From positions 1-64,000 of the forward strand of contig CAKZSI010000007.1 of NCBI GenBank assembly GCA_937918935.1: 64,000 bases of DNA, in the 5' to 3' direction. This DNA is from an uncultured Chloroflexales bacterium (lineage in GTDB: Bacteria > Chloroflexota > Chloroflexia > Chloroflexales > Chloroflexaceae). Shown here piece by piece: positions 12,270-64,000 of this stretch. The notes under the pieces are model-generated. The model worked only from the letters and a program-made list of their open reading frames with translations, did not search any database and was not told where the DNA came from. Position 1 is the stretch's first letter; each line of letters begins with the position of its first letter. A program made the position numbers and the translations under genes.

Positions 12270-12292
12270 GCCCCTGTGCATCGTATAGGGGA

Positions 12293-12321
12293 GGCCAGGA
12301 GGGGTTAATTCTCTCCTGGCC
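12293..12321 (+). terminator. Hairpin between convergent genes
   Basis: Perfect nine-base stem, GGCCAGGAG (12293-12301) with CTCCTGGCC (12313-12321), just after the VWA gene and before the convergent GGCT-like gene. There is no T-run, so termination is inferred from position only. Confidence 0.4.
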
Positions 12322-12388
12322 GCGTTCTGTGCCGCAACGGAACGCGAACGATTTCGGGGCCGCAGGCCCTCGCCGAGACGAAGTCTCG

Positions 12389-12808
12389 TTACAGGCGCCA
12401 GTCGCCGTCGGGTATGCGGCGCATGCGCCCCTGGCGAATGAGCCGCAGCGCCCGCTCCGCCGCGACGTACACCCAGGCCTGGCGCATGCCGTCCGCCGTC
12501 TCAACCTCCAGGGCCACCCGTTCGTACAGATTGGTCGCCTGCCCGGCGACGAACCCCTCCAGCCGGTCGAGCGCGGCCAGGGTCTCCGGGTAGAAGGCGG
12601 GGAGAACGGCGATCAGGTCGCCACGGACCGTATCGTCGGGGGCCGCCAGTTCGGGAACGGTGGTGAGGAAGGGGAACGGCCCGGGGGTAAACAGGGCTGC
12701 TCCGCGCAGCGTGGCCGGTGTTTCGGCGCTCGTGCGCCCGAGCAGGTACTGCCGGTAGCTTACCCTGCCGGGCCGCAGGGTGCCGTACACAAAGAAAGGC
12801 AACTGCAT
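12389..12808 (-). CDS. Gamma-glutamylcyclotransferase-like (AIG2/GGCT fold) protein
   Basis: A 139-residue protein starting MQLPFFVYGTLRPG. The YGTLRxG substrate-loop motif and the acidic residue in LDRLEGF (the candidate catalytic Glu) are typical of the family, which cyclises gamma-glutamyl amines or peptides. I chose the ATG at 12808 because homology begins there; upstream codons read through a palindrome-rich gap. The substrate cannot be assigned. Confidence 0.75.
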   Translation of the reverse strand: MQLPFFVYGTLRPGRVSYRQYLLGRTSAETPATLRGAALFTPGPFPFLTTVPELAAPDDTVRGDLIAVLPAFYPETLAALDRLEGFVAGQATNLYERVALEVETADGMRQAWVYVAAERALRLIRQGRMRRIPDGDWRL

Positions 12809-30103: not shown

Positions 30104-31174
30104 TCATTCCCACCCGTAGCGCCAGCGCGAGCGCAAAATGAGGGCCAGGAAGAACGGGCCGCCGGCGAGCGCGGTTATCAGCCCGACTGGCGCCTCGGCC
30201 GGAGCGGCGACCGTGCGAGCCACCAGGTCGGCCAGGATCAGCAGACTGGCGCCGCCGAGTGCGGCGGCCGGCAATAACAGCCGGTGATCCGGCCCGGCTG
30301 CCAGCCGCACCATGTGCGGGACAATCAGCCCGATGAAGCCAATCGGGCCGACCAGGGCAACCGAGGCGCCCGTCGCCAGAGCCGCGAGGAGCACGGCCGC
30401 ACGCTTGACCTGCTCCACCTTCACCCCCAGATGGCGCGCCTCGACTTCGCCGAGCGCGAACAGGTTTAGCGCCCGGCCCAGGCGCGGAGCGAGCAGCAAT
30501 GCCAGGGCGATGCCCGGAGTCGCAGCCAGCAGCGTCTCCCACAGCGCGCCGCCCAGGCCGCCCATGGTCCAGAAGACAATCGAGCGCAGCGCCGCATCAT
30601 CGGCCAGGTAGGTGAGCAGGCCGGTGGCCGCCCCGGCAACCGCGTTGAGCGCCAGGCCCACCAGCAGCAGCGTGGCCACATCGGTACGCCCGTGGCGCCG
30701 CGACAGGCGATAGACCAGCAGCGTCGTCGCCGCTCCGCTCACGAAGGCCGCGAAGGGCAGGGTGAACAACCCCAGTGGCGCCAGGCCGGAGACGATCACC
30801 GCAACGGCGCCGAGGGCCGCGCCGCTACTCACCCCGATCAGCCCCGGATCGGCCAGCGGGTTGCGGAACACGCCCTGGAGCAACGCCCCACTGACCGCCA
30901 GCGCCGCTCCACTCAGGGCTCCCAGCAACACTCGCGGCAGCCGGATGTTCCAGAGCACTGCCGTCTGCTGCGGAGTGACCGGAACATCGAGCGTCAACCC
31001 AAGTTTGCTCAACAGAATCGCCGCCACCGCCTCGGGCGGCACGAGTACCGGGCCAAGGCCAACTCCAAGCAACAGGGACACGATCAGGAACGCCAGCAAG
31101 AGCGGTATCAGCACGCGCCTGCCCCGGGGGCGTGGCGCAGCGGCGACGGGGATCGTCTGGCTGGTGGCGCTCAT
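30104..31174 (-). CDS. hmuU: Heme ABC transporter permease
   Basis: A 356-residue FecCD permease with the full family signatures: LPRVLLGALSGAALAVSGALLQGVFRNPLA written across residues 90-120, and the coupling motif GFIGLIVPHMVRLAAGPDHR. It overlaps the hmuT stop by four bases (ATGA). The HmuV/HmuT neighbours point to heme rather than siderophore or cobalamin. Substrate assignment is inference. Confidence 0.85.
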   Translation of the reverse strand: MSATSQTIPVAAAPRPRGRRVLIPLLLAFLIVSLLLGVGLGPVLVPPEAVAAILLSKLGLTLDVPVTPQQTAVLWNIRLPRVLLGALSGAALAVSGALLQGVFRNPLADPGLIGVSSGAALGAVAVIVSGLAPLGLFTLPFAAFVSGAATTLLVYRLSRRHGRTDVATLLLVGLALNAVAGAATGLLTYLADDAALRSIVFWTMGGLGGALWETLLAATPGIALALLLAPRLGRALNLFALGEVEARHLGVKVEQVKRAAVLLAALATGASVALVGPIGFIGLIVPHMVRLAAGPDHRLLLPAAALGGASLLILADLVARTVAAPAEAPVGLITALAGGPFFLALILRSRWRYGWE

Positions 31175-32265
31175 CGTCCCGCCTCCTGGAGCATCGCGGC
31201 GCGAAAGGCGATCGTCAGATCGGCCAGCGCCTGTCCGGTGCGCGGCCCCAGACCCAGGAGGTACAGATCGTCCATCGCGACGATATGCTGGTGTCTGGCG
31301 GCGGGGGTGTCGGCAAGACCGGGGATGCGCAGCAACCCTTCGACTCCGCCAACCGACTCGAGCCCCTTCGCCAGCAAGAGGATTACGTCAGGTTGGGACG
31401 CGACCACAACCTCGGGACTCAGGGGCTTGAACTGGACGATGCCCGCCTCCGCGGCGGCGTTCGCGCCCCCGGCGCCCCGGATCATTGCGTCGGCCGGCGT
31501 TTCGCTCCCGGCCACCTGTTGCACGTCCGTACCGCGCAGATAGAGGAAGAGCACCCTGGGGGAAGCGGGCAGTTCGCGGGCCCCGGCGCGCGCGGTGGCG
31601 ATCTCCCGTTCAACCTGGGCCGCCAGCATCTCACCGCGCTCGGGTACGCCAAGGGCCGCGGCCACGAAGCGGATCTTGACCAGCGGCGCCGTCAGATCCG
31701 GCGGATCGGCCGTGAGCGCCACCGGCACGCCGGCGGAGCGGATCTGCGCCAGGGCCTCGGGAGGACCGGCGGTTTCATCACCAATGACCAGGGTGGGGGA
31801 CAGAGCCAGAATGCCCTCAGCATTCAACCGGCGCTGATAGCCGATATTCGGCAGCTCCCTGGTTTTTTCCCGTGGATAGGTCGAACTGCTATCCACGCCG
31901 ACGACCCGATCCCCCATCCCCAGGGCGAAAATAATCTCAGTGATGTCCCCGTTCAGGCTGACGATCCGCTCGATGGAGTCAATGGCGACCTGCTGGCCCT
32001 GATAATCCGTCACGGTGACTGGCAAGCGGGGCGCTTCCGCATCAGAAGAGGGGACCGGCGCAACGGCGGGCGCCGCCGTCGCGCCGGCGGGTGGAGGGGA
32101 GACGGGGGGAGCAGGGGCGGTTGGCGGCGCTGCGACGCCGGTCGTTGAGGTGGCCGCGCCGCAGCCCGCCAGAAGTATCACGTACAGCAGGGAGCACCAG
32201 AACGTAGCGCGATGGAAAGCCGACCGACAAATGGCAACTTCTGGTCTGGCACTTTGCTCAGTCAT
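31171..32265 (-). CDS. hmuT: Heme ABC transporter substrate-binding lipoprotein
   Basis: A 364-residue class III binding protein. A signal peptide ends in the lipobox VILLAGC near residue 35, followed by a Pro/Ala-rich linker to about residue 75. The HmuT-typical segment YPREKTRELPNIGYQRRLNA and EGILALSPTLVIGDE are present; the Tyr there is at a usual heme-ligand position. It sits between hmuV and hmuU and overlaps hmuU by four bases. Confidence 0.82.
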   Translation of the reverse strand: MTEQSARPEVAICRSAFHRATFWCSLLYVILLAGCGAATSTTGVAAPPTAPAPPVSPPPAGATAAPAVAPVPSSDAEAPRLPVTVTDYQGQQVAIDSIERIVSLNGDITEIIFALGMGDRVVGVDSSSTYPREKTRELPNIGYQRRLNAEGILALSPTLVIGDETAGPPEALAQIRSAGVPVALTADPPDLTAPLVKIRFVAAALGVPERGEMLAAQVEREIATARAGARELPASPRVLFLYLRGTDVQQVAGSETPADAMIRGAGGANAAAEAGIVQFKPLSPEVVVASQPDVILLLAKGLESVGGVEGLLRIPGLADTPAARHQHIVAMDDLYLLGLGPRTGQALADLTIAFRAAMLQEAGR

Positions 32266-32292
32266 ATCAGCCGTCCAGGCACGTTATGCGCA

Positions 32293-33147
32293 TTATGATG
32301 ACCGGCTCACATCCGCAGCGTGCGCCCGGGAACGTTCCGGCGCTGGCAGCGATCGCGCGGCGTCCTGCGCCGCGTCCAGGTTAGGAAGCGAGAACACCAC
32401 CGGCACATCCGCGTGCGGATGCGGCATAACAACGACGGTAACTCCGTAGACCGGGCCAAGCACTTCGGGGCGCAGCACCTCCCACGGCGAGCCACAGGCC
32501 ACGAGCCGGCCCCGGTGGAGCACTCCGATACGGTCGGCGTACCAGGCAGCCAGGTTCAGATCGTGCAGCACCGCCAGCACTGCGCCTCCCTGAGCGGCAA
32601 TGGCCCGCGCCAGATGCATTGCCCCATGCTGGTGGCGCAGATCGAGGGCCGCGGTAGGCTCATCCAGCAGCAACAGGGGGGCCTGCTGCGCCAGCACGCG
32701 CGCCATGCTCACGCGGGTTTGCTCGCCACCCGAGAGCGTCGGAAACGCGCGCCCGGCGCAGGGCAACATCTCCACGGACGCCAGCGCGTCACGGGTGATC
32801 GCATGGTCAACCGGGCGTTCCACACCGGCCTTGAGACGCGGGTGCCGCCCCATCAGCGCCACCTCGTAGGCCGTGAACGGCAGAGCGACCCCGAGGCGCT
32901 GGCGCAGCACGGCCCGGCTGCGGGCCTGTTCCAGGGCGGAGAGTTGCGTAAGGGACACGCCCTCGAGCAGCGCCTCACCTGCGGCTGGACGCAGATCGCC
33001 GGCCAGGAGACCAAGCAGGGTGCTCTTCCCGGCCCCATTCGGACCAACCAGTACCATCACCTCGCCGTAGCTCAGGGAGAACGAAACGCCATCAACGATC
33101 CGGAGACCGTTAACGGCGTAGGAAAGCGAGCGAACGTCGAGGAGCAT
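32293..33147 (-). CDS. hmuV: Heme ABC transporter ATP-binding protein
   Basis: A 284-residue ATPase of the FecE/HmuV type: Walker A VLVGPNGAGKSTLL, signature LSGGEQTRVSMARVL, Walker B LLLLDEPTAALD, switch His in VLHDLNLAAWY. The tail GPVYGVTVVVMPHPHADVPV is longer than usual and His-rich. I chose the ATG at 33147 (MLLDVRSL), about 58 bases from the predicted transcription start. It is the first gene of the iron/heme island. Confidence 0.85.
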   Translation of the reverse strand: MLLDVRSLSYAVNGLRIVDGVSFSLSYGEVMVLVGPNGAGKSTLLGLLAGDLRPAAGEALLEGVSLTQLSALEQARSRAVLRQRLGVALPFTAYEVALMGRHPRLKAGVERPVDHAITRDALASVEMLPCAGRAFPTLSGGEQTRVSMARVLAQQAPLLLLDEPTAALDLRHQHGAMHLARAIAAQGGAVLAVLHDLNLAAWYADRIGVLHRGRLVACGSPWEVLRPEVLGPVYGVTVVVMPHPHADVPVVFSLPNLDAAQDAARSLPAPERSRAHAADVSRSS

Positions 33148-33204
33148 ATACACAACTTTCCGGGTTCGTCCCGTTGGCAACTGGATATGAGTGAAGGCAA
33201 CTTG

Positions 33205-36992: not shown

Positions 36993-37021
36993 CCCGCATC
37001 ACCCGTACCCGTACAACTCAC

Positions 37022-37148
37022 CGTCGCGGTGACCCGATAGCCCGGATGCCAGGGCGTAAAGGTGGAAGCTGGTGCGAGTCCAGCGCTGTGCCGCAACTGT
37101 AACCGGGCGTTCCATCGAACGCCGGAAGCCAGGACGCCTGCCGCGATG
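37022..37148 (+). ncRNA. Cobalamin riboswitch 1
   Basis: A P1-type closing stem pairs CGTCGCGG (37022-37029) with CCGCGATG (37141-37148). Inside are the conserved core AAAGGTGGAAGCTGGTGCGA, the CCGCAACTGTAACC (B12-box-like) segment and GGAAGCCAGGACGCC. It is almost identical to the riboswitch at 55621-55748. Unlike that one, no hairpin with a T-run follows; a degenerate hairpin (37247-37251 with 37267-37271) is the only analogue. It precedes cbiR and the methylmalonyl-CoA mutase operon. Confidence 0.92.
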
Positions 37149-37180
37149 TTGTTTGTTTCACCCTTCTCGAGCCAGGGAGG

Positions 37181-51725: not shown

Positions 51726-53363
51726 TTACGGAACAACCCGCGCTTCGGCGGCGAAGGGGTCGCTGAAGCGCGGGTCAGTAATGAAGGTCGTATCAGTCAG
51801 GGCCTCGAGGAAGGCGATCAGGTCGGCTCGTTCCTGATCGGTGAGCGTGAAGCCGCTTACCAGACCGCTCTTCAGCGGGCTGCGCCGGCCATCCCCGGCG
51901 TAGGGGCCATCGGCGATGTAGCGCCCGCCAGCCTCGTAGAAGCGCACGACCTCCTCGAGCGTCGCCATGCTGCCATCGTGCATGTAGGGCGCGGTCAGAG
52001 CCACGTTGCGCAGGCTGGGCGCGCGGAAGCGGCCCATGTCCTCGGGGCGATTGCTGACGGCTTCTACGCCGGTGTTATTCGGCGGGTAGGCCCCGCGCCC
52101 GTCGAGGTTGTACAGCCCGGTGTTGTGGAACGGCGCCTCGACAAAGACCGTGTTGCGCTGGCGGATGGAGCCGGTGAAGTTGAAGCCCCCATGGCAGTGG
52201 TGGCACTCCAGCTCCTCGGAGAGGAACAGATCCATGCCCCGGAGCGCCGCCCCTGAAAGCGCATCGAGATTGCCAGCGAGGTAGCGGTCGTAGGGCGAGT
52301 CAGCCGAGATCAAGGAGCGGCTGAAGGAGGCCAGGGCCTTGACGATGTTGCCCCAGGTGTACGGATCGGCCTCGCCCGGAAAGGCTGCGGCGAAGAGGGT
52401 CTGGTAGCGGGGATCGGCCCGGAAGCGAGCCAGGACCTCGGCCTCGTGCCCGGTTATTCCCAGTTCGACGGGGAACTCACTGAACATCGGAATAAGGATC
52501 TGGCGCTCCAGATCTGTCAACACCGGGTTGGCCCAGGTAAGCGTGCTGTAGTAGGCCACGTTGGCCAGGCCCTGGCTGTTGCGCGGCAACGGCTCGCCGG
52601 TTGAGCCGTGGGGCGTGGTCTTCCCGTCGCTGAAGGCCAGGGCCTGCTGGTGGCAACTCGCGCAGGCCATTGTGCCGTTGGCCGAGAGGCGCCTGTCGTA
52701 AAACAGGAAGCGTCCCAGTTCAACTTTTTCGGCTGTCATCGGGTTGTCGGGCGGCACATAGGGCAGCGGGAAGCCGGCGGGCAGGTTCCAGGCGTAGGTC
52801 TCCTCCGCCGCCGCGGGTGCTGCCGCGTATCCCGACGACGTCAGATCGCTATGGACGTGATTGTGCCCGTCGTGGCTGTGACCGGGCGCCTCGGCCAGGT
52901 GGGGGAGCGCCGGAGCAGCGGCGAGGGCGCCGCCCCAGACGAGTGCTCCGCTGCCCAGGCAGAGGGCGGCGCTGCGTGCCAGCAGGGCTGCCGGGTTGCC
53001 GCGTCGGCGCCCGAAGGCCCCCGCGTGGTCCAGCCGCAACAGGGTCAGAAAAGCGCCGGTCTCGGCCAGCTTGGTCGTGGCGGCGGCCCAGTCTACCGGA
53101 TGCGGCCCGTGGGCGAACGGCGTCGCCAGATGGCTCAGCAACCAGAGGGCCACCACCCCGCCTGAGAGCAGCAACCCCGGCAGGCGCAGCGCCGGCCCGA
53201 AGCGACGCCACCACAGCCCCACGTAGCCAAGCTGTGCAATTCCAATCGCCCCGAAGAGCAGGCCATGAGCCGGCGAATGCGCGTAGTGCTCCGGGGCGAT
53301 CAGCAGGTGGATCACCCCGGCCAACGCCAGGCAGATCCCGACGATCTGGTGGAAACTGAACAT
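51726..53363 (-). CDS. MbnH-like di-heme enzyme with N-terminal membrane domain
   Basis: A 545-residue protein. Residues 1-150 contain about five hydrophobic helices; residues 162-171 form a His-rich segment ([10 protein letters not shown]). From about 205 it is a di-heme peroxidase-family domain with CASCH (234-238) and CHHCH (387-391), ending near DPRFSDPF. MbnH enzymes convert a tryptophan of the partner MbnP to kynurenine. Here mbnP is directly upstream in the same operon. A fused membrane domain is not usual for MbnH. The ATG at 53363 (MFSFHQIVG) has GGGAG upstream; the longer open frame crosses repeats. Confidence 0.85.
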
Positions 53364-53399
53364 TGGGGCGCTCCCTTCATACGCGCAACCCACACCATC

Positions 53400-53860
53400 T
53401 ACATTGGCAGGGGCGTGGGGCCACCCGCTGGCCCCGCCCGCCGCATGCCCGGGGGGCCACCCGCTGGCCCCGCCCGCCGCATGCCCAGGCAACCTGATGG
53501 CCCCGCTCTCGCCGCGCCGGCAGGGGCGGGGAAAAACCCACCCCCCTTTGCTCACCGGCAGGGGCGTGGGGCAACCTGGTGGCCCCGCTCGCCGCATGCC
53601 CGGGGGGCAACCCGCTGGCCCCGCTCTCGTCCCGTCGGCAGGGGCAGAGCAACCCGGTTTCCTCGCTTCTCTCCCCATCGGCAGGAGCGGGAAACCCGCT
53701 GGCCCCGCTTCTCGCCGCGCCGGCAGGGGCGGGAAACCCGCTGGCCCCGCTTCTCGCTCCGCCGGCAGGGGCGGGGAAAAACCCACCCCCCTTTTCTCAC
53801 CGGCAGGGGCGTGGGGAAACCCGGTTTCCCCACGCTTTTCCAACCGGCGGATGTAAGAGG
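53400..53860. repeat. Degenerate GC-rich tandem/composite repeat block
   Basis: About 460 bases of interleaved units: CCCGCTGGCCCCGC-CCGCCGCATGCCC repeated near 53420, 53460 and 53590, and CGGCAGGGGCGGGAAACCCG-type units from 53515 to 53850. It ends with GTGGGGAAACCCGGTTTCCCC at 53811-53831. It separates mbnP from mbnH. Long frames through it on both strands are low-complexity artefacts. Confidence 0.8.
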
Positions 53861-53912
53861 GTATCTCGAACAGCCTGACCCTTCCAGACCCTCCCGGAGG
53901 GATGCCAGAACC

Positions 53913-54860
53913 CTACGGGTTTTGCAGCCGGAAGAGCTGCTGAGTCCCGGTCGTGGCGCCCGTGGCCAGATCCAGGCCAAAGCCGAGGAAGAGAGCCGGG
54001 CAGTCCGGGTCCTTTGGACCGGACATGCAGCCAGGCGGCTCGGGCGTGTTCTGGTCGAGCGGCACATCGCGCAGCAGACTGGCGAGGTCAGCGACGATGA
54101 CGCTCTTGCCCGGGTCAAAGCCGTCGAGACGGACCGAGACCAGGTTGGGGTTGCTGCAGGGAGCCGAGGGCGGCTCGGCGCGGTCGTTCGATTTGCAGCC
54201 AGTGCTGCCGAGGTGGATGAACCAGGCGCTCGGTCTGGCGGCGCCCTGGTCATGCATCTCGCCCTGGCTGCCGGCCGGGGCGGTGGCGCTCATTTCCATC
54301 GTCGGGGCCATGGCGGCGCCGGGCGTATCGGTCAGCATATCCACGCGCATGAATTTGTAGCCCCCCTGCCAGTTCCACCAGAGGGCCTGGATGTTCAGGG
54401 GCGAGGGGGCGACGGCCACATCAACATGATTCAGCTCGAAGGGTACGCCCATATCAAAGGCGATCCCGGTGTAGCGGCCGGGAGGTACGGCGCCTTTGAC
54501 CACGTCGTTCAGAGCCGTATTGCCACCCTCGCTGCAACCGGCGCTGCCGTCCTCGAAGTCGAGGAGGGCGACATTCTGGTACTGCCAGATGCCATCCTGG
54601 GCGAGTTGGAGAGGAACCTCCTGAGCCTGGGCGTTGATCAGACGGATGTTCGAGACGTAGAAGCGCAGGTCGGTGAACGAGATCTCGGTGCCGGCCTTGC
54701 CGATGCCGGGGTAGTTCTTGCCGCACACGGCGTCCTGGTCGCCGACTTTCATGGCGAAGCGGAGGGTGACGTTACCGTCGGTGTTATTGGCCGGCCCACA
54801 GGCGGCGAGGGCCGTCAGGAACAGAGCGCCGAGAAGGAGGATGCGCAGATGACGTAGCAT
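53913..54860 (-). CDS. MbnP-like lipoprotein
   Basis: A 315-residue secreted protein with lipobox LTALAACGP near residue 20. It matches the MbnP family: beta-rich N-terminal half with GTEISFTDLRFYVSNIRLI, GRYTGIAFDMGVPFELNH, and the Trp-rich LWWNWQGGYKFMRVD near residue 165, which holds the Trp converted by MbnH in characterised pairs. Six to seven cysteines lie in the rest. Characterised MbnP proteins bind copper after modification. The ATG at 54860 starts the signal peptide. Confidence 0.85.
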   Translation of the reverse strand: MLRHLRILLLGALFLTALAACGPANNTDGNVTLRFAMKVGDQDAVCGKNYPGIGKAGTEISFTDLRFYVSNIRLINAQAQEVPLQLAQDGIWQYQNVALLDFEDGSAGCSEGGNTALNDVVKGAVPPGRYTGIAFDMGVPFELNHVDVAVAPSPLNIQALWWNWQGGYKFMRVDMLTDTPGAAMAPTMEMSATAPAGSQGEMHDQGAARPSAWFIHLGSTGCKSNDRAEPPSAPCSNPNLVSVRLDGFDPGKSVIVADLASLLRDVPLDQNTPEPPGCMSGPKDPDCPALFLGFGLDLATGATTGTQQLFRLQNP

Positions 54861-54985
54861 AGAATGCTGTCCTTTCGCATTGCATGATGCACTGATGTAC
54901 ATACAAGCCCTGGATGGGGAGGATCTGGAAGGGGTGAACCCTTCCAGGCAAACCCCTTTTTCGTAATCCTCATCTGTAGTGCAAT

Positions 54986-55587: not shown

Positions 55588-55620
55588 CCTGTTAATTCCG
55601 CACCTACGCAACCTGATACC

Positions 55621-55748
55621 CGTCGCGGTGACCCGTTGGCCCGGATGCCAGGGCATAAAGGTGGAAGCTGGTGCAAGTCCAGCGCTGTGCCGCAACTGTA
55701 ACCGGTCGTTCAGTTGAACGACCGGAAGCCAGGATGCCTGCCGCGATG
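55621..55748 (+). ncRNA. Cobalamin riboswitch 2
   Basis: Close copy of the riboswitch at 37022-37148: the closing stem CGTCGCGG/CCGCGATG, AAAGGTGGAAGCTGGTGCAA, CCGCAACTGTAACC and GGAAGCCAGGATGCC are all conserved. The variable stem (GGTCGTTCAGTTGAACGACC) differs but stays fully paired. A leader ORF and an intrinsic terminator follow, giving a complete expression platform for the downstream B12 genes. Confidence 0.94.
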
Positions 55749-55786
55749 TTGTTGTTCCACCCTTCTCGAGCCAGGGAGGACGAACA

Positions 55787-55852
55787 ATGGCCCGCGCCCC
55801 TGCACTATTCTCTATCCACGTGCCAGTTGTACCCGTCACCCCCGTTCTCTGA
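55787..55852 (+). CDS. Riboswitch leader ORF ending inside the terminator loop
   Basis: GGGAGG at 55774-55779 is seven bases from the ATG at 55787. The 21-codon frame (MARAPALFSIHVPVVPVTPV-L) stops at 55852, inside the loop of the terminator hairpin whose 5' arm is 55839-55844. A ribosome reaching the stop would cover that arm and prevent termination. This arrangement suggests translation-coupled attenuation downstream of the riboswitch; it is inference from layout. Confidence 0.5.
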   Translation: MARAPALFSIHVPVVPVTPVL

Positions 55853-55869
55853 TGAGGCGGGGGCTTTTT
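55839..55869 (+). terminator. Intrinsic terminator after riboswitch 2
   Basis: CCCCCG (55839-55844) pairs with CGGGGG (55858-55863), followed by CTTTTT (55864-55869). A good rho-independent terminator in the riboswitch expression platform, upstream of the first structural gene. Confidence 0.82.
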
Positions 55870-56141
55870 GTTGGACCATAGCGCACCCCTCCGGCCAGCC
55901 ACAGGAGGGATGAGGTGGGCAGAACCCACCCGGTCACTTCCTATGGGCCCGGAATAAATGATTATATCTATCAATTATGATGTGAAGATCCTCTCAGGTG
56001 GCGTCTCCGGGGCGGCAAGGTCGCCTGAGATGGGAGGGTCTGGCAGGGCAAAGCCCTGCCAGATACCCGCCTGCCAGCCCTTTCGGGTAACAGGACTTGC
56101 CGGATGCACCACTAACGGAAGCATCCATATTGAGGCTCGCA

Positions 56142-56360
56142 ATGCATCCCGACGATGACCTATGGCACGAACTGGCGGCAAGTATGGAACGCGCCACGCA
56201 GGCCGAGCGAGAGATCGAACTGCTCGGCTGGTTGCCCACTGCTGCCGCGCATACCGCGCTGAACCGCCTCACCTGGGAACGGTCGCGCCAGGCCGCCCTG
56301 CTGCGCCTGCTGCGAAACCCATCGCTGTGGTTCCGCGCCGGTGAGCGTGGCCCCTCATGA
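56142..56360 (+). CDS. Small hypothetical protein of the B12 locus
   Basis: A 72-residue helical, Arg/Leu-rich protein (MHPDDDLWHELAASMERATQ, later WFRAGERG). TGAGG is seven bases before the ATG at 56142; an ATG at 56097 is in frame but lacks a site. First gene after riboswitch 2 and 78 bases before the binding-protein gene. No known family recognised. Confidence 0.55.
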   Translation: MHPDDDLWHELAASMERATQAEREIELLGWLPTAAAHTALNRLTWERSRQAALLRLLRNPSLWFRAGERGPS

Positions 56361-56437
56361 AGCGCCCGCGCTTCATTGCGACATACACAGGGACCGGTTC
56401 GCCTCCCACGTCTTGTTTGGTACGAAAGGGAAACTCC

Positions 56438-57733
56438 ATGTCGCGTTTCTGCCTCTCCTGGATGGCCGCCCTGCTCCTTGCCGTTGCCCTCGTCGCCTGT
56501 GGCGGCCCTCGCGCCACCCAGATGCCCACGACTGCTCCGGCAGCGCCCGCGACCGCGACTCCTCCGCCTGCGCCTACCGCCGCCCCTTCCACCCCCGCAC
56601 CCACGGCGGCGGCGCTTGAGGCGCCCGTCGCCAACCTCACCGAGGGCTGTGTCACCGATTACGACCCGGATCTCGATTACTTCCCCGAAAAGGTCGCCCT
56701 CGAAGATGCCACCGGCTGGACCATCGAGTACTTCAACAATTACAAGCTCATAACCGTGCTCAACCCCTGGCGCGATGCCGATGTGCAGTTTCGCTACGTG
56801 CTGGTGCAGTGCGGTACCCCCGCTCCGCCCGATGTGGGCGATGCTCAGGTAATCGAGGCGCCGGTGAAGTCCATTGTCACCATGTCCACCACCCAGTTGC
56901 CGCACTTGAAGGAACTCGATCTGCTCGACCGCCTGGTGGGTGTTGACACTTTCCAGTACATCAATACGCCAGAGGTGGTGGAGTTGATCGAGGCGGGCAA
57001 GCTGAAGGAGATCGGGAGCGGCGCCGAGTTGAACGTCGAGCAGGCCATTGACATCGAACCCGACCTGGTGATGACCTACGGCGTGGGCAACCCGGAGTTC
57101 GACTCGCACCCGAAGCTGCTCGAAGCCGGCCTGAAGGTGGCGATGAACGCCGAGTACATGGAACCGACACCCCTGGGACGGGCCGAGTGGATCAAGTTCA
57201 CGGCCGCCTTTTTCAATCGCGAAGTAATGGCCACCGAGGTGTACGCGGGCATCGCCGGGCGCTACGCCGAGATGACCGCAAAAGCGCAGGCAGTGACCAT
57301 GCAGCCCACGGTCTTCTCCGGCGCACCTTTCCGGGGCACGTGGTACATGCCCGGCGGCAACAGCTACGCCGCAAAGCTCCTTGCCGACGCGGGGGCGGCC
57401 TACCTCTGGGCCGACGATACCTCGACCGGCAGTATGCAGTTGAGTTTCGAGGAGGTGCTCGACCGCGCTAAAGACGCCGACATCTGGGTCAACCCTGGTT
57501 CCTGGAAAACCCTGGCCGAGGGTCTGGCGCAGGATGAACGCTTTGCCCAGTTCCTCGCCTTCCAGAACGGCAAGGTCTACAACAACAACAGGCGCCTCAA
57601 TGCCAATGGCGGCAATGACTACTGGGAAACCGGCGTGACCAACCCCGATCTCGTGCTGGCTGACCTGATCGCCATCTTCCACCCTGAATTGCTGCCCGGC
57701 CACGAGTTCGTGTTCTACCAGCGCCTGGAGTAG
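56438..57733 (+). CDS. Cobalamin-type ABC substrate-binding lipoprotein
   Basis: A 431-residue class III (BtuF/FecB-like) binding protein. The signal peptide ends in lipobox LVACGG near residue 22, then a Thr/Pro/Ala linker to about residue 65. The domain has APVKSIVTMSTTQLPHLKEL, LVGVDTFQYINTPEVVELI, IGSGAELNVEQAIDIEPDLV and GTWYMPGGNSYAAKLLADAG. The upstream B12 riboswitch points to cobalamin or a related corrinoid as ligand. AAGGGA precedes the ATG at 56438. No btuC or btuD is in the window; they may lie to the right. Confidence 0.78.
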   Translation: MSRFCLSWMAALLLAVALVACGGPRATQMPTTAPAAPATATPPPAPTAAPSTPAPTAAALEAPVANLTEGCVTDYDPDLDYFPEKVALEDATGWTIEYFNNYKLITVLNPWRDADVQFRYVLVQCGTPAPPDVGDAQVIEAPVKSIVTMSTTQLPHLKELDLLDRLVGVDTFQYINTPEVVELIEAGKLKEIGSGAELNVEQAIDIEPDLVMTYGVGNPEFDSHPKLLEAGLKVAMNAEYMEPTPLGRAEWIKFTAAFFNREVMATEVYAGIAGRYAEMTAKAQAVTMQPTVFSGAPFRGTWYMPGGNSYAAKLLADAGAAYLWADDTSTGSMQLSFEEVLDRAKDADIWVNPGSWKTLAEGLAQDERFAQFLAFQNGKVYNNNRRLNANGGNDYWETGVTNPDLVLADLIAIFHPELLPGHEFVFYQRLE

Positions 57734-57890
57734 GTGTGCAGATGCTGAAGGGAGGATCGGGGAGGGCTTTGCCTTCCCAGGAAAATACCTTAACGATAAC
57801 TTCTCCTTCGAGAGGAGGCTCGGAGGGGCCACACCCCTCCGAAAATCTCCGCCACGACGAGGTGTTGTTGTAGTATTGGAGAAACGAGCC

Positions 57891-60239
57891 ATGAACCGCA
57901 AACGCTCCTGGTCGGCGCTGCTGACGCTCGTCTTTGCCCTGGCGCTCGGAACAATCACAGTTGGACGCGCACCTGCCACCCTGGCGACCGAACTGGCGCA
58001 GTCGGCAAGCGCCACCTATCCCTACTTCGAGAGTGAGGCGATTGAGCGGGCCGTCGGGTACCTGCGGACGCAGCAGGTGGCCAGCGGGGGTATCAACTCC
58101 TTCGGGGCCGGGGCTGACCCCGGCGGGACCAGCCGGTTGTTAATGTCGCTCAATGCGGTCGGCTACCCGGCTAATGCGCTGTTATCCAGCGACAACCGGA
58201 CCCTGGCCGATTATCTGGCCGCCGAAACGGTCGGCTACATCTACAAAGATGATACGCCGGCAACCGACAATCTCTTCCCCGGACGCGCGGGGCTGGTGCT
58301 TGGGGCGGTGAGCGCCGCCGGGCTGAACCCGCGCAACTTCGGCGGCGTGGACCTGATCGGCGCGCTCGAGGCGGTCTACCGCGCCGATGGCACGTACAGC
58401 ACCGACGCGGTTGAGGGCTTCGCCAGCGGGCGCGCCAGTGAAATTAATCAGACCCTCGCAATCCTGGGACTGGTATCCGCGGGGCGCCCCATCCCGCCAG
58501 CGGCGACGCAGTGGTTGATTGATCGGCAGCGCGAGAACGGGAGCTGGATCAACAACGTTGATGTAACCGGCTATGGCCTGCTGGCGCTGATCGGCAGCGG
58601 CAATGTCCCGCCAACCGATCCGGCGGTGCAACGGGCGGTGGCGTTCTTCCGCGCCAACCAGACCTCACGCACGGCCCTCTGGGGCGACATCGGCGGCGGC
58701 GAGCCGGCCAACAGCAGCGGCTGGGCCATGACTGCCCTGTCGGCCTATGGCTACGTGCCAATGACGAACAGTTGGGGCGCCGGTGGAACTAATCCGCGGC
58801 AGGCACTGCGCGGGCTGCAGAACAGCGAGGGCATCATTGCCCTGCGCTTCTTCAACGCCTACGCCACCCTGGAGGCGCTCTACGGCCTCACCGACCAGCC
58901 CCTGTTCCTGGGGCGTCCGTTGCGGGTCGAGCGGGCGCTGGCCTACCTCAGGGGGCTGCAAAATGCCGATGGCGGCTGGCCCGACTTCGGGAGCGCCTCG
59001 TCGCCGGGCGGAACGCTGGATACGCTCTTCGCCTTCGTGGCCGCCGGGTACGACCCCAATCAGATCCGCAGCTCCGCCAACAACGGGCCCCTCGACTTCC
59101 TGGCCACGGCTGCGCCGACCTACACCCGCGACGACAGCAACCGGATCTTCCCGGCCCAGACCGGCAAGCTGATCGTCGGCGTCGTGGCGGCGGGCGGCAA
59201 TCCCGCCGATTTTGCGGGCTTCAATCTGGTGAGCGATCTGCAATCCACCCTTCAGGCCAGCGGCTCCTACAGCACCGACGCGCAACGAGGTTTCACCAGC
59301 GGCGCGCCCGGCGTCACCAACCAGTCCTTCGCCATACTGGGCCTCGTTGCGGCCGGCCAGTCGATTCCCCTGGCGGCAATCAATTTCCTGACCAGCCTCC
59401 AGACAGCCAGTGGTAGCTGGGGAAGCCCTGACGAGACTGGTCTGGCCCTCCAGGCGCTGAGCGCCGCTGGCGTCGCGCCGAACGCGCCCGCCGTGGTAAA
59501 CGGCGTCAATTACCTGCGCACCACCCAGGCCGCCAGCGGGGGATGGGAAGCCTTCGGCGCGGTGAACAGCAACTCGACCGCCTACGCTATTCAGGGGTTG
59601 CTCGCCGCCGGGGTGGATCTGACCCGGCCGGAGTGGCGCAAGCAGGGTCGCTGGCCCCTGGGCGCGCTAGCCAGTTTCCAGAAGCCCAACGGCCCCTTCG
59701 TCTACTCCTGGGGCCCGGAGAGTGGCGGCTTTAACCCCGCGGCCAACAACCTGCTCGCTACCCGGCAGAGCATCCCGGCCCTGCTCGGCGCCTTTTACCC
59801 GTATCGGACAACCGGCCCCCTGGCTTCGAACTTCACGCCAATCAACCGTGGGCCAGACCCTGACCGGCTGGTGACCGCACCGCTGATTATCCAGTTCAAC
59901 CCCCAGCGTACCCAGGCCACGGTCATTGCGCCTTTCGGCAGCGATCTGAACGGCAATGGCAGCGCGACCATTGAGTGGGACGTCATTCGCGGCCCGGGGG
60001 GAGCAGCGGCGCCGACGGCATTCCAGAGCGCCCCGGCCACCCGCGAGCCAGGGGCCTTCCGGGCGACGATCAACCTCAGCGGCGCTAACTTCGGCCCCCT
60101 TGATACGCTGCGGGCGCGGGCAACCTTCAGCGACCCTGATGGCGTTCAGGACGGCACGACCCTGACGACCAATCCTGTCGCTGTGATCGGCGACCTGGGG
60201 CCGCAGCGGGTGTATCTGCCATTTGCTGCCCGGCGCTAA
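57891..60239 (+). CDS. Secreted double alpha/alpha-barrel (prenyltransferase/transcobalamin-fold) protein
   Basis: A 782-residue protein with a signal peptide (residues 1-35). Two homologous halves, about 46-290 and 345-610, each have repeats of the terpenoid-cyclase/transcobalamin type: PGGTSRLLMSLNAVGYPANA against PGGTLDTLFAFVAAGYDPNQ, and TYSTDAVEGFASG against SYSTDAQRGFTSG. A beta-rich Ig-like domain follows (640-770) and the chain ends VYLPFAARR. It has no QW/DxDD cyclase motif that I can see. Position between a B12-riboswitch-controlled binding protein and DUF4430-like genes suggests corrinoid capture; function is inference. GGAG precedes the ATG at 57891. Confidence 0.7.
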   Translation: MNRKRSWSALLTLVFALALGTITVGRAPATLATELAQSASATYPYFESEAIERAVGYLRTQQVASGGINSFGAGADPGGTSRLLMSLNAVGYPANALLSSDNRTLADYLAAETVGYIYKDDTPATDNLFPGRAGLVLGAVSAAGLNPRNFGGVDLIGALEAVYRADGTYSTDAVEGFASGRASEINQTLAILGLVSAGRPIPPAATQWLIDRQRENGSWINNVDVTGYGLLALIGSGNVPPTDPAVQRAVAFFRANQTSRTALWGDIGGGEPANSSGWAMTALSAYGYVPMTNSWGAGGTNPRQALRGLQNSEGIIALRFFNAYATLEALYGLTDQPLFLGRPLRVERALAYLRGLQNADGGWPDFGSASSPGGTLDTLFAFVAAGYDPNQIRSSANNGPLDFLATAAPTYTRDDSNRIFPAQTGKLIVGVVAAGGNPADFAGFNLVSDLQSTLQASGSYSTDAQRGFTSGAPGVTNQSFAILGLVAAGQSIPLAAINFLTSLQTASGSWGSPDETGLALQALSAAGVAPNAPAVVNGVNYLRTTQAASGGWEAFGAVNSNSTAYAIQGLLAAGVDLTRPEWRKQGRWPLGALASFQKPNGPFVYSWGPESGGFNPAANNLLATRQSIPALLGAFYPYRTTGPLASNFTPINRGPDPDRLVTAPLIIQFNPQRTQATVIAPFGSDLNGNGSATIEWDVIRGPGGAAAPTAFQSAPATREPGAFRATINLSGANFGPLDTLRARATFSDPDGVQDGTTLTTNPVAVIGDLGPQRVYLPFAARR

Positions 60240-60270
60240 CGGCTTTCCGCAGTGGCAGGGGAGGATCTGG

Positions 60271-60681
60271 ATGGAACCAGTCAACCACCCACAACAACCG
60301 CGCATCCGGTTGCTCCGCTGGCTGCTCCTGCTTGGCGGCACGCTGTCGCTGGGGATCGGCGCACTTGGAACAGTAGTGCCAGGGCTGCCGACAACACCGT
60401 TCGTACTCCTCGCGGCCGCCTGCTATGTTCGCAGCTCCGAGCGGCTCTACCGCTGGCTGATCACCAATCGCGTCTTCGGGCCGGTGCTGGAAACCTGGCG
60501 CACCCATCGCGGAATGACCCTGCGCGCGAAACTGGTCACCCTGACGCTGGTCTGGCTCATGCTGGGCAGCGCGGCGCTGTTCCTGGCGGAAAGCCTGTTT
60601 ATGAAGCTCGTCCTCATTGGAATTGCCAGCGTCAAGACGGTGGTTCTGGCGCGTATTCGCACCGTCGCGGCAGAAGGTTGA
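60271..60681 (+). CDS. DUF454 (YbaN-like) inner-membrane protein
   Basis: A 136-residue protein with three or four helices. It has the family's GALGTVVPGLPTTPFVLLAA, CYVRSSERLYRWL and a W-x-x-x-R-G-M motif (TWRTHRGMTL). GGAGG is seven bases before the ATG at 60271, 31 bases after the barrel gene. DUF454 function is unknown; in some bacteria relatives lie beside heme or metal genes. Confidence 0.85.
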   Translation: MEPVNHPQQPRIRLLRWLLLLGGTLSLGIGALGTVVPGLPTTPFVLLAAACYVRSSERLYRWLITNRVFGPVLETWRTHRGMTLRAKLVTLTLVWLMLGSAALFLAESLFMKLVLIGIASVKTVVLARIRTVAAEG

Positions 60682-60722
60682 CGCCGGTAGTTGTGCAGTA
60701 AGAGCCTGTAGGAGCAATCACC

Positions 60723-61565
60723 GTGAGCATACCGCCGATTGATTTTGTCGCCGCCTGGGCCGCTGCGATGCGCCGGCGCCCGAGCAGGCGGCTCGATCCA
60801 GCCGAGGATCGCGCCTTCTGGCAGCAGTATGCCGCGGAATACGATGGGCGCGCCGGAGCGGCAGGTACGGCGACCCGCTGCCTGGCCCTGGTCGCCGGCT
60901 TGCTCCGCCCCGACGATACGCTGCTCGATGTCGGCGCGGGCACGGGGCGCTTCGCCCTCCCCCTGGCCCGGCACGTGCGTGCGGTGACGGCCCTCGACCA
61001 GTCGGCGGCAATGCTCGATCTGCTTCAGCGTAAGGCCTCATTCCACAGCATTACCAATATCCACTGCATCGAAGCCGAATGGCCCGATGCAGCGGTCGAA
61101 CCGCACGATGTGGTGCTGGCGGCCTGGTCGCTCTACCGACAGCTCGACCTCGGCGTGGCTCTCGCCAGACTGGTCGCTGTCACCCGGCGAACCCTTGTGG
61201 TGCTGGATGGAGTGGGGTGCGATCCACCCCATCGGCCGCTCTTCGAGCGCTACTTCGGCCCCTGGAGTGAGTCTGAACTCCCGAATCACCTCTACCTGGC
61301 CGGCGCTCTCTGGCAACAGGGGCTGCTGGCCGAGGTGCAGATCGTGACCGAAACGCCAACCATGATCGGGGAAACAGCTTACGAGATTGCCGCTCAACTG
61401 GCGCCGTTAAACACTCCACCAGAGGTCGTCACGGCGCTGGCGTATGACCTGGCGCCTCTGCTCGCTCCGTCCGAAGAAGGGTGCTGTTATGTCTACCAGC
61501 AGGCAGTGGGGGCGGTAATCTGGCATGCGAGTAACCCGGAAAGTTGCACGAAGACCTTCCCCTGA
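60723..61565 (+). CDS. Class I SAM-dependent methyltransferase
   Basis: A 280-residue Rossmann-fold methyltransferase. Motif I is LLDVGAGTGRFALPLA near residue 65, with VTALDQSAAMLDLLQ (motif II) and VVLAAWSLYRQLDLGVALAR (post-motif strand). GTG start at 60723 with AGGAG eight bases upstream. Substrate unknown; corrin-ring methylases look different, so a direct role in B12 synthesis is not implied. Confidence 0.85.
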   Translation: MSIPPIDFVAAWAAAMRRRPSRRLDPAEDRAFWQQYAAEYDGRAGAAGTATRCLALVAGLLRPDDTLLDVGAGTGRFALPLARHVRAVTALDQSAAMLDLLQRKASFHSITNIHCIEAEWPDAAVEPHDVVLAAWSLYRQLDLGVALARLVAVTRRTLVVLDGVGCDPPHRPLFERYFGPWSESELPNHLYLAGALWQQGLLAEVQIVTETPTMIGETAYEIAAQLAPLNTPPEVVTALAYDLAPLLAPSEEGCCYVYQQAVGAVIWHASNPESCTKTFP

Positions 61566-61574
61566 CAGGCAGAG

Positions 61575-61601
61575 GTATGGGGAAACCCGGTCTCCCCATA
61601 C
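61575..61601. repeat. Interspersed palindrome, 27 bp
   Basis: GTATGGGGAAACCCGG and its near-complement TCTCCCCATAC form a strong hairpin ten bases after the methyltransferase stop codon; it may end that transcript. Confidence 0.7.
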
Positions 61602-61631
61602 CCTCTTTTAGCCTCTCTTTATTTGAAAACG

Positions 61632-62207
61632 ATGCCAATTTCTGTACCCGAAAAACCAACCAGTAGAGAGCAACCGGCAGCGCCCTGGGCCAGACGCTTC
61701 CGCTGCGCTCGCTTGCTGTGCGCCTGGCTGGCCCTGCTGCTGCTCACGCTGGCGGTTCCGCCCCCGGCGACGCCCTCCGCCGTGGCCTCCCGCCAGCACC
61801 AGGCCGGGCTGATCGTGCAAACCGGGGAGGGTGAGGCGATTACGCAGTGCATCAGTTTTGAGGAGGAGCAGATCAGCGGGCTGGCCCTGCTGGAGCGTTC
61901 GGGCATACCCTTCGCCGCTGTCAACGATGAACGCTACGGCGCCTTCATCTGTGGTATTGCCGGCGCGGGCTGCCCGGCGGAGCGTTGTCTGTGCGCCTAC
62001 CCGCCCCGTTACTGGCAGTACTGGCTGCTGGAACCTGATGGCTGGCGTGTTTCGCCCGTGGGCGCCAGCGGCCGCGTAGTGCGCAATGGCGATGTGGACG
62101 GCTGGGTCTGGCTGCGCGATGCGGACGGCCCGCGCTTCGACGAGCGCTTTGTCAATCCCTGTCAGGCGCCGGCAGACGGGCGTGTGTATGTGCCACTGAT
62201 AAGGTGA
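61632..62207 (+). CDS. Secreted Cys-rich DUF4430-like protein, copy 1
   Basis: A 191-residue protein with an N-terminal signal/anchor helix (about 28-48). The exported domain starts AGLIVQTGEGEAITQC and includes FICGIAGAGCPAERCLCAY, a WQYWL segment and RNGDVDGWVWL. The last part resembles the GD-x-V-x-W strand of DUF4430 domains, which match the C-terminal beta domain of transcobalamin/intrinsic factor. It ends VYVPLIR. Five cysteines are shared with the next gene. The DUF4430 relation is my reading, not a search result. Confidence 0.6.
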   Translation: MPISVPEKPTSREQPAAPWARRFRCARLLCAWLALLLLTLAVPPPATPSAVASRQHQAGLIVQTGEGEAITQCISFEEEQISGLALLERSGIPFAAVNDERYGAFICGIAGAGCPAERCLCAYPPRYWQYWLLEPDGWRVSPVGASGRVVRNGDVDGWVWLRDADGPRFDERFVNPCQAPADGRVYVPLIR

Positions 62208-62301
62208 GTATTCCTCTCCTTACCCTGCCCCGCACCCTTTTCACCTGCGCTCGAGAGGGAGGGCGCTGCGGGGAGAGTGAGGACCACCCATACCATAACG
62301 G

Positions 62302-63756
62302 ATGAAATCCTCCCGACAACCCGGCCCCCGGCTACCCGGCGTCGCCAGCATACTCGTTGGCCTCCTGGCGCTGCTGACGCTGGGGATCGGCCTGGCACCG
62401 GGGGCGCACCCGTTCCGCTTGCACACAGCGCATGCGCATCATGGCCCAATCCCATCGGAACGCCCTGTACAGCAATCCAAAATCCAAAATCCCAGATCCC
62501 AGATCCAGAACGCCTCTCCGACCAGCCGCGCCGATCAGCCGACCGAGGCCGGGCTGGTCATCGAGTATGACGATGGCCGCCTGGAGACCTTCTGCGTTGA
62601 CACCGGCGACCCGTTCGGCACGACTGCGGAACAACTCCTGCTAAATGCGCCACTGGAGACGCAGATGTTTCGCGAGTACGGCAACTTGTTCGTGTGTCGC
62701 ATCGGCGACAGAGGATGCCCACGAGAGGACTGCCTGTGCGCTTACGCTGGCGACGCACCGCAAAGTCGCCTCTGGATGAGCTACCAGCTCCGCGATGGCG
62801 GCTGGCAGACCCCTGAGCCGGCGGAGGTCAACCTCAGCCGCCGGCGGGTGTTTCCGGGGGATGTTGAGGCGTGGGTCTGGGGCTATCCCGGCGATGGACA
62901 CGGACAGGGCGCGGCTCGGCCGTCGCGGGTGATTGCCTTTGCGCAGATCTGCGCCGCGACAACCCCTACCCCAACCCCCACTACGACGACGACGCCCACA
63001 CCCACTGATACAGTTATGCCAACCGACACCCCTGCGCCCACCGATACGCCACGTTCTGCCGACACGCCCCTGCCGGCGCCCGCTCTTCCGGCGCCGCTGC
63101 CAGAGCAGAACGGGCCGATTGTCCTGCCTGCGGCATCGCCGACCCGCCCGGTGTTGCCGACGTTCGTGCAACCCTCGCGGACGGCCACGCCTCCGGTGCG
63201 CGAGGGGGCGCCTGCAACCAGTGCCCCGGTCCATCTGCCGCTGGTGCGCGGCATGGCGGAGCCGCCGCCGCCACCGGTTGACACACCCCCGATGGTGGCG
63301 CTCGAACCCACTCTCTCGTCGCCAGCGCCTACCGCTACCATTCCCGCATCACCCACACCACGCCTCGATCTGACGGCCACAGCGGCGATCCTCCAGACCG
63401 AGTTTGCTGTCCCATCTGCCCCGGCCACGCCTACAGGCGCCAGCGGGAAGTCAAACACCGACGGTGATCTGGCGACGACCCCGACTGTCATACCGCCGCA
63501 TGCCACACGCATACCTCGCCCAACCCGACCTGTTGCCGGCGGGGTCGCGCGTCCCGATGCCGCGCCGTACCCGGCGCCGCAGGCGCAGGCGTACCCGGCG
63601 CCGCAGGCGCCGGCATCGCGTACCGCTGAGCCGCCGATCAGTCTCGTTCCCTGGCTGGCGCTGTCAGTGGGGATCGTCCTGGCAGCGGTGCTGGCCCTGG
63701 CGCTTGCGCAACGCCGCGCCAATCGTGATCTGGAAAAGGACGCTGAAGGAGGTTGA
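62302..63756 (+). CDS. Membrane-anchored Cys-rich DUF4430-like protein, copy 2
   Basis: A 484-residue protein. In order: signal helix (10-35), a linker encoded by 7-bp repeats (about 58-69), a Cys-rich domain (75-215) with [19 protein letters not shown] and [11 protein letters not shown] like copy 1, a long Thr/Pro linker (220-440) that contains VHLPLVRG, and a C-terminal membrane helix ([20 protein letters not shown]) with a basic tail. It looks like a surface receptor anchored at its C-terminus. No strong ribosome site precedes the ATG at 62302. Confidence 0.62.
62474..62508. repeat. Heptanucleotide tandem repeat inside a coding sequence
   Basis: Five 7-base units: AATCCAA, AATCCAA, AATCCCA, GATCCCA, GATCCAG. 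They resemble STRR-type heptamers of cyanobacterial intergenic DNA but lie inside the 62302-63756 gene, encoding part of the linker between signal helix and Cys-rich domain. Five units are 35 bases, so unit gain or loss would shift the frame. Confidence 0.8.
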
Positions 63757-63758
63757 CC

Positions 63759-64000
63759 GTGCCCGGAAGGCCCACAATGAACCCGTACACTCGCCACATC
63801 TTTATCTGCACCGGGAGCTACTGTGACCCCCAGGGCCTGACAGAGGCGCTCTACGCTCGTCTGCCGCGTCTGCTCGGCGCCCTGGGACACTACGAAAACC
63901 CTCGGCGGGTCAAGCGAGGCACAGCCGCGTGCCTTGGCGTTTGTTCCGGCGGGCCGCTTGTGGTGGTGTACCCCGAGGGGATCTGGTACCACCACGTAGA
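63759..64000 (+). CDS. [2Fe-2S] ferredoxin-domain protein, 5' part (CbiW-like)
   Basis: The first 80 codons of a thioredoxin-like [2Fe-2S] ferredoxin. [14 protein letters not shown] carries the first cysteine pair, and [20 protein letters not shown] and WYHHV are the family's second pair and C-terminal core. GTG at 63759 has AAGGAGG six bases upstream and starts two bases after the previous stop; an ATG at 63777 is in frame. Such ferredoxins (CbiW) occur with anaerobic cobalamin-biosynthesis genes, which would fit the locus. The gene is cut by the window edge. Confidence 0.78.

Follow-up and report, generated by a model that had tools for sequence, protein, structure and literature searches.

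We analyzed a stretch of 64,000 nucleotides from an uncultured Chloroflexales bacterium (the window), the left-hand portion of a contig of 114,673 bases in a genome of 4.6 Mb, in which a cobalamin riboswitch precedes genes for a BtuF-like lipoprotein, a secreted protein made of two alpha/alpha barrels, and two Cys-rich extracytoplasmic proteins with beta-grasp domains, SLBB_A and SLBB_B (Table 1). Quite probably, these genes form a riboswitch-controlled operon for corrinoid capture and import that includes a split, transcobalamin-like two-part trap. That the two transcobalamin-type halves are made as separate proteins had been proposed in an original prediction from this DNA, and the proposal agrees with the predicted folds, the genomic partnership of the two genes, their occasional fusion, and the riboswitches in front of them across Chloroflexota. 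Over much of the phylum the same pair of genes is found behind a B12 switch, and this suggests a two-part B12 trap. The overall interpretation of the original prediction is supported; the regulatory element, secretion signals, predicted folds and neighboring genes are read from sequence, and from these we infer corrinoid as the bound ligand, the sandwich around it, its hand-over to BtuF and a response to B12.

An iterated profile for the SLBB domain collected 69 good domains from Chloroflexota genomes, in which a Gly and a Trp are invariant and four near-invariant Cys lie in the motif VCxI-x3-GCPAxxCxC. The AlphaFold model of the SLBB_A domain of the window, built from this alignment, had a pLDDT (predicted local distance difference test) of 90.5 and a pTM (predicted template modeling score) of 0.85. 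When it was compared with the PDB by Foldseek, the top 19 places were all taken by transcobalamin, haptocorrin, intrinsic factor or the bacterial relative 3u7z, and VIA-align returned transcobalamin-family matches at Z 12.8-13.9 (haptocorrin 13.9, over 98 residues at 2.0 A; transcobalamin 13.6; intrinsic factor 13.4), with the next, unrelated fold at Z 7.1. The elements of the model run in the order E7-14 E20-27 H34-41 E45-50 E54-60 E78-85 E88-91 E106-112 and include the extra beta-hairpin after the helix, the feature that defines the transcobalamin-like clade of the SLBB superfamily (Burroughs et al., 2007; PMC1796856). On account of these fold matches and this hairpin the Cys-rich domains were assigned to that clade, to which SLBB_A belongs by predicted fold, and in which SLBB_B, 33% identical to SLBB_A by alignment, is putatively placed by the shared profile and alignment. 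Each protein carries one domain ending in GDV-x-(G/A)-W-x-W, in agreement with the GD-x-V-x-W-type ends first noticed in them; the further description of these ends as DUF4430-like holds for the predicted fold of SLBB_A and not for the Pfam profile, with PF14478 reaching 1 of the 69 domains at E 0.15, none above the gathering score, and none in the genome. Neither SLBB_A nor SLBB_B matched any Pfam family, and when the SLBB profile was searched against PDB sequences the matches were antibody-type chains alone, which were taken as chance, such that the fold comparison was needed. Crude hydropathy showed hydrophobic, signal-peptide-like N-terminal stretches throughout the SLBB proteins and C-terminal anchors in most, and we predict that they are secreted or surface anchored.

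The four near-invariant Cys might instead indicate a surface complex for cobalt or another metal, in which the Cys motif binds metal and not corrinoid; the depositors of 3u7z described it as putatively metal-binding, and another cobalamin riboswitch in the genome is followed by genes for cobalt transport. We regard this as very unlikely, given that the SLBB_A fold is specifically that of cobalamin binders, that the importer partnered with it in the window is not a cobalt transporter but BtuFCD, accompanied by CbiZ, and that two disulfides are the simpler reading of four Cys in a secreted domain.

The partnership of riboswitch, SLBB domain and barrel extends well beyond the window. In a sample of 150 genomes from the class, 90 had SLBB_A homologues, and a profile search across the phylum found the SLBB domain in 72 of 301 sampled genomes, many of them outside the class. 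Loci were selected by SLBB hits and not by riboswitches, and a cobalamin riboswitch stood directly in front in 55 of the 63 loci inspected: 35 of 41 in the first set, on the same strand (38 had enough upstream DNA, and three of the six exceptions had none), and 20 of 22 in the second. By a rough estimate the chance of such a riboswitch is ~2 in 10,000 per locus. The distance to the first domain is usually 190-430 nt and reaches ~2.5 kb in L039, where a BtuF gene intervenes as in the window, and in many genomes the riboswitch of the locus is the sole cobalamin riboswitch. The barrel gene normally adjoins the SLBB gene, and in six loci the two are fused, as barrel-barrel-SLBB (L079, L102, L103) or as SLBB-barrel-barrel (L080, L100, L115). 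Additionally, two SLBB domains occur in 10 of 20 double-barrel loci versus 1 of 45 single-barrel loci (P 9e-6, a value overstated since related genomes are not independent). A search for related loci with the barrel gave one close relative, a metagenome-assembled genome of an uncultured Chloroflexi bacterium. In one complete genome (L046) the barrel-SLBB pair comes immediately after a TnpB-like gene (11353-12714), and no riboswitch, not even a degenerate one, was found there.

The barrel protein is made of two halves, as first described, and these are homologous to each other. Both are helical barrels in the model of the protein from L079, which is 57% identical, is fused to an SLBB domain, and was used as a stand-in; besides the barrels, this model (pTM 0.71) has an Ig-like domain and the SLBB domain. 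Structure prediction thus returned both an alpha/alpha toroid (L079) and a transcobalamin-type beta domain (SLBB_A), and the barrel of the window is predicted to be an alpha6/alpha6 toroid, a fold not specific to the transcobalamin/intrinsic factor family. Squalene-hopene cyclases are the best profile and structural matches of the barrel, as would be expected of a squalene cyclase- or prenyltransferase-type enzyme whose association with B12 genes is incidental. The barrel is secreted, its partnership with riboswitch and SLBB is constant, and a DxDD or GCGEQ motif is present in 0 of 65 barrels, 56 of which have no Cys at all, making cyclase, thioester and Cys-ligated zinc prenyltransferase functions unlikely; terpene cyclase, thioester protein and prenyltransferase were rejected as identities for want of the needed residues, and an enzyme of this type is highly improbable here.

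Several observations weigh against a transcobalamin-like trap. The profile searches that the original prediction had called for, against PF01122 and DUF4430 (PF14478), gave no match, the barrel matching the SQHop_cyclase profiles of Pfam instead. The alpha/alpha toroid is common to many enzymes, and for this fold squalene-hopene cyclases outscore transcobalamin. They also came first in a sequence search with the barrel, in which Transcobalamin-1 appeared only at E 0.008. Foldseek placed transcobalamin at ranks 8-34 for the L079 model, in alignments that covered both barrel and SLBB without a change of order, yet the root mean square deviation over both domains was ~26 A, the SLBB domain being placed unlike that of transcobalamin with the Ig-like domain between; the closed sandwich geometry is therefore not demonstrated by this model. 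Transcobalamin was not among the 50 matches listed by VIA-align for L079, the helical barrel filling that list. Some loci have SLBB without a nearby barrel (L112-L114, L119), and the cbi genes for synthesis in this organism imply that uptake need not be essential.

Some of these observations would also fit an arrangement in which only the SLBB proteins bind corrinoid and the barrel, bound to another ligand such as a cell-wall glycan, merely scaffolds or tethers the receptor. The barrel is similar both to cyclases and to alpha/alpha toroids that act on glycans, some riboswitch loci keep SLBB without it, the fused model lacks a closed sandwich, and the isolated human beta domain has cobalamin-bound structures (PMC5599065). 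We nevertheless think this arrangement unlikely, in view of the recurrent barrel-SLBB fusion in both orders, the tendency of double-barrel loci to carry two SLBB domains, and the fact that transcobalamin itself holds its ligand with such a toroid.

For the two-part trap, we propose that transcription would pass the riboswitch when corrinoid is scarce. Each half of the barrel, together with one beta domain, would enclose a corrinoid outside the membrane, one domain on either side, in the way that transcobalamin uses its alpha and beta domains, and the ligand would hold the barrel and SLBB proteins together; the linker and helix of SLBB_B would keep it at the membrane, with SLBB_A and the barrel released or surface-bound. 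The corrinoid would then be handed to BtuF and BtuCD and remodeled by CbiZ and Cob enzymes, and in most other Chloroflexota the same trap would feed an importer of the energy-coupling factor (ECF) type. When the alpha and beta domains of human transcobalamin are expressed separately, they come together only on addition of cobalamin (PMC5599065), and by analogy ligand-driven assembly of two separately made domain types would be the simplest reading here. More tentatively, and with some doubt, we suggest a trap of independently secreted proteins that join only around corrinoid, in which a single barrel protein would carry two corrinoids, each with a different beta partner (one partner free, the other membrane-tethered and delivering), the whole being a phylum-wide module interchangeable between BtuFCD and ECF importers.

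The idea of bacterial toroid and SLBB proteins as B12 scavengers is not new; it dates from 2007 and was not named in the original prediction. The proteins then described came mainly from low-GC Gram-positives, planctomycetes and euryarchaea, usually as toroid-SLBB fusions and in some cases in operons with a second SLBB paralogue, and the animal B12 carriers were proposed to derive from such proteins (Burroughs et al., 2007; PMC1796856); Chloroflexus is not mentioned in the text of that paper. The Chloroflexota proteins share with them a secreted or anchored SLBB with a toroid, a position near CbiO/CbiQ-type transporter genes and sometimes a second SLBB paralogue, but differ in being split, double-barreled, riboswitch-linked phylum-wide and, in the genus of the window, joined to BtuFCD. 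With animal transcobalamin, haptocorrin and intrinsic factor they share secretion, a relation to B12, and an alpha/alpha toroid plus a transcobalamin-type beta-grasp domain. They differ from these in the doubled barrel, the two beta-domain proteins, the Cys-rich insert and the missing PF01122 and DUF4430 matches, are known here from sequence and models, and are separate chains: toroid and beta domain lie in separate genes in the window and are fused only in the six other loci.

Two curated families appear, by sequence, to be distant relatives of the barrel and SLBB. SCO2321_fam (NCBIfam NF053823) was matched by 65 of 65 barrels at E<=0.001 and SCO2322_fam (NF040672) by 53 of 69 SLBB domains at E<=0.1, with the window proteins far below the curated cut-offs (100.5 bits versus 300 and 17.5 versus 85, respectively). 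Their adjacent locus numbers suggest that SCO2321 and SCO2322 are the same gene pair in Streptomyces; literature searches returned no paper on them in a B12-capture role. BtuG of Bacteroides is likewise a surface corrinoid-capture protein feeding a Btu importer, a role only predicted here, but is a lipoprotein with an unrelated fold, a seven-bladed beta-propeller (PMC6143338). No tested bacterial toroid-SLBB carrier of B12 turned up in the papers searched, and as far as these show, the split form in Chloroflexota, the near-constant riboswitch, the doubling, the fusion in either order and the pairing with two types of importer are new. BtuFCD and ECF-type corrinoid importers are the downstream importers of these loci and, to our knowledge, are usually described without a barrel/SLBB capture stage. 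The locus and its relatives offer small, separable, riboswitch-linked versions throughout the phylum, with their fusions and two importers, so that it becomes possible to test directly whether they bind corrinoid, whether the ligand drives their assembly and how intrinsic factor arose.

The C-termini of the 57891 and 61632 products, and of proteins in L039-L049, L086 and others, end in a Y-(L/V)-P-(L/I)-(V/I)-x-R tail, which is frequent in secreted proteins without a C-terminal membrane helix (22 matches versus ~3 expected after shuffling) and may serve in sorting or anchoring, as a tail not described before. In the genome, only two matches were obtained with a stringent DNA pattern for C-terminal YLPLVxR.

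Table 1. Features of the operon in the window.
Feature	Position	Strand	Evidence
Cobalamin riboswitch aptamer RF00174	55609..55759	+	55.5 bits (gathering 31.5); E 4e-11 window-wide; alignment complete
Intrinsic-terminator-like hairpin and T run	~55837..55869	+	CCCCCG...CGGGGG then TTTTT; read from sequence
BtuF-like substrate-binding lipoprotein 1	56357..57733	+	Peripla_BP_2 PF01497 3e-26; lipobox ALVAC
Secreted double alpha/alpha-barrel protein P0001, C-terminal extension and YLPF tail	57891..60239	+	SCO2321_fam 9e-29; SQHop_cyclase_C 4.5e-16
Barrel half 1	58032..58928	+	iterated profile, 274 bits
Barrel half 2	58917..59822	+	iterated profile, 324 bits
DUF454 protein	60223..60681	+	PF04304 1e-35
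SAM (S-adenosylmethionine)-dependent methyltransferase	60723..61565	+	PF13649 4e-10
SLBB_A, secreted Cys-rich transcobalamin-type beta-domain protein, ends VYVPLIR	61632..62207	+	AlphaFold and PDB fold matches
SLBB_A beta-grasp domain	61779..62132	+	domain alignment
SLBB_B, second beta-domain protein; long Pro/Thr-rich linker, C-terminal transmembrane anchor	62302..63756	+	same iterated profile, 101 bits; hydrophobic C-terminus
SLBB_B beta-grasp domain	62524..62901	+	domain alignment
2Fe-2S thioredoxin-like ferredoxin, cut by window end	63753..64000	+	PF01257 4e-4 and NF041612 8e-9, both below cut-off on partial piece

The cobalamin riboswitch with its terminator and the BtuF-like lipoprotein were both recovered as first described, and the start of the lipoprotein is probably near 56438. 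The hairpin is the probable expression platform of the riboswitch; the RNA fold of 55826-55878 has -19.1 kcal/mol (z -1.6), and a simple terminator scan alone did not place it above chance because its loop is larger than the limit of that scan. Downstream, all on the plus strand, follow the lipoprotein, the double barrel, a DUF454 protein and a methyltransferase, neither of which the original prediction had mentioned, then SLBB_A, SLBB_B and the ferredoxin. The DUF454 protein, between the barrel and Cys-rich genes, is probably an operon passenger, and the methyltransferase was below cut-off for the CpaM and CbiT models. Matches to the ferredoxin are weak because the window end cuts its gene; a 2Fe-2S ferredoxin is consistent with them, and the label CbiW-like is putative.

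Beyond the window, the same contig encodes a FecCD/BtuC permease, an ATP-binding cassette (ABC) ATPase, a second BtuF-like lipoprotein, ChlD- and ChlI-like genes, CobN and CbiZ, so that the BtuC and BtuD sought to the right are present, together with a second BtuF and CbiZ. A FecCD permease, an ABC ATPase and a Peripla_BP_2 protein in one locus identify a BtuCDF-type, putative corrinoid importer. CbiZ is adenosylcobinamide amidohydrolase, a salvage enzyme, and this side of the locus therefore fits corrinoid uptake and remodeling. In the genus of the window, the capture pair is followed by BtuC, BtuD and the second BtuF; in most relatives a long ABC ATPase follows, and where scanned CbiQ/EcfT and an ECF substrate component, or CobS and a CobC-like histidine phosphatase. 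The pair seems to form a module that is combined with either of two importer types, BtuFCD and ECF.

The cobalamin riboswitch model RF00174 matched the window twice (37010-37159 and 55609-55759); it also detected a third riboswitch on contig 44, close to a cluster of CbiM, CbiQ, CbiO, CbiB, CbiC, CbiD and CbiE/CbiT, so that the genome has at least part of a synthesis pathway as well. The riboswitch at 37010-37159, not reported in the original prediction, precedes a xylose-isomerase-like TIM-barrel gene and a small gene, then both methylmalonyl-CoA mutase subunits, and thus stands before genes of B12-dependent enzymes. Another BtuF/BtuC/BtuD-like importer set lies at 30104-33180 on the minus strand, with no cobalamin riboswitch in front. 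Just left of the operon, a MauG-type di-haem peroxidase adjoins an MbnP-family protein (51726-54902, minus strand); between their genes, at 53370-53860, are repetitive GC-rich coding-like stretches (e.g., GETRFPH...), and short pieces resembling these recur elsewhere in the translations of the genome.

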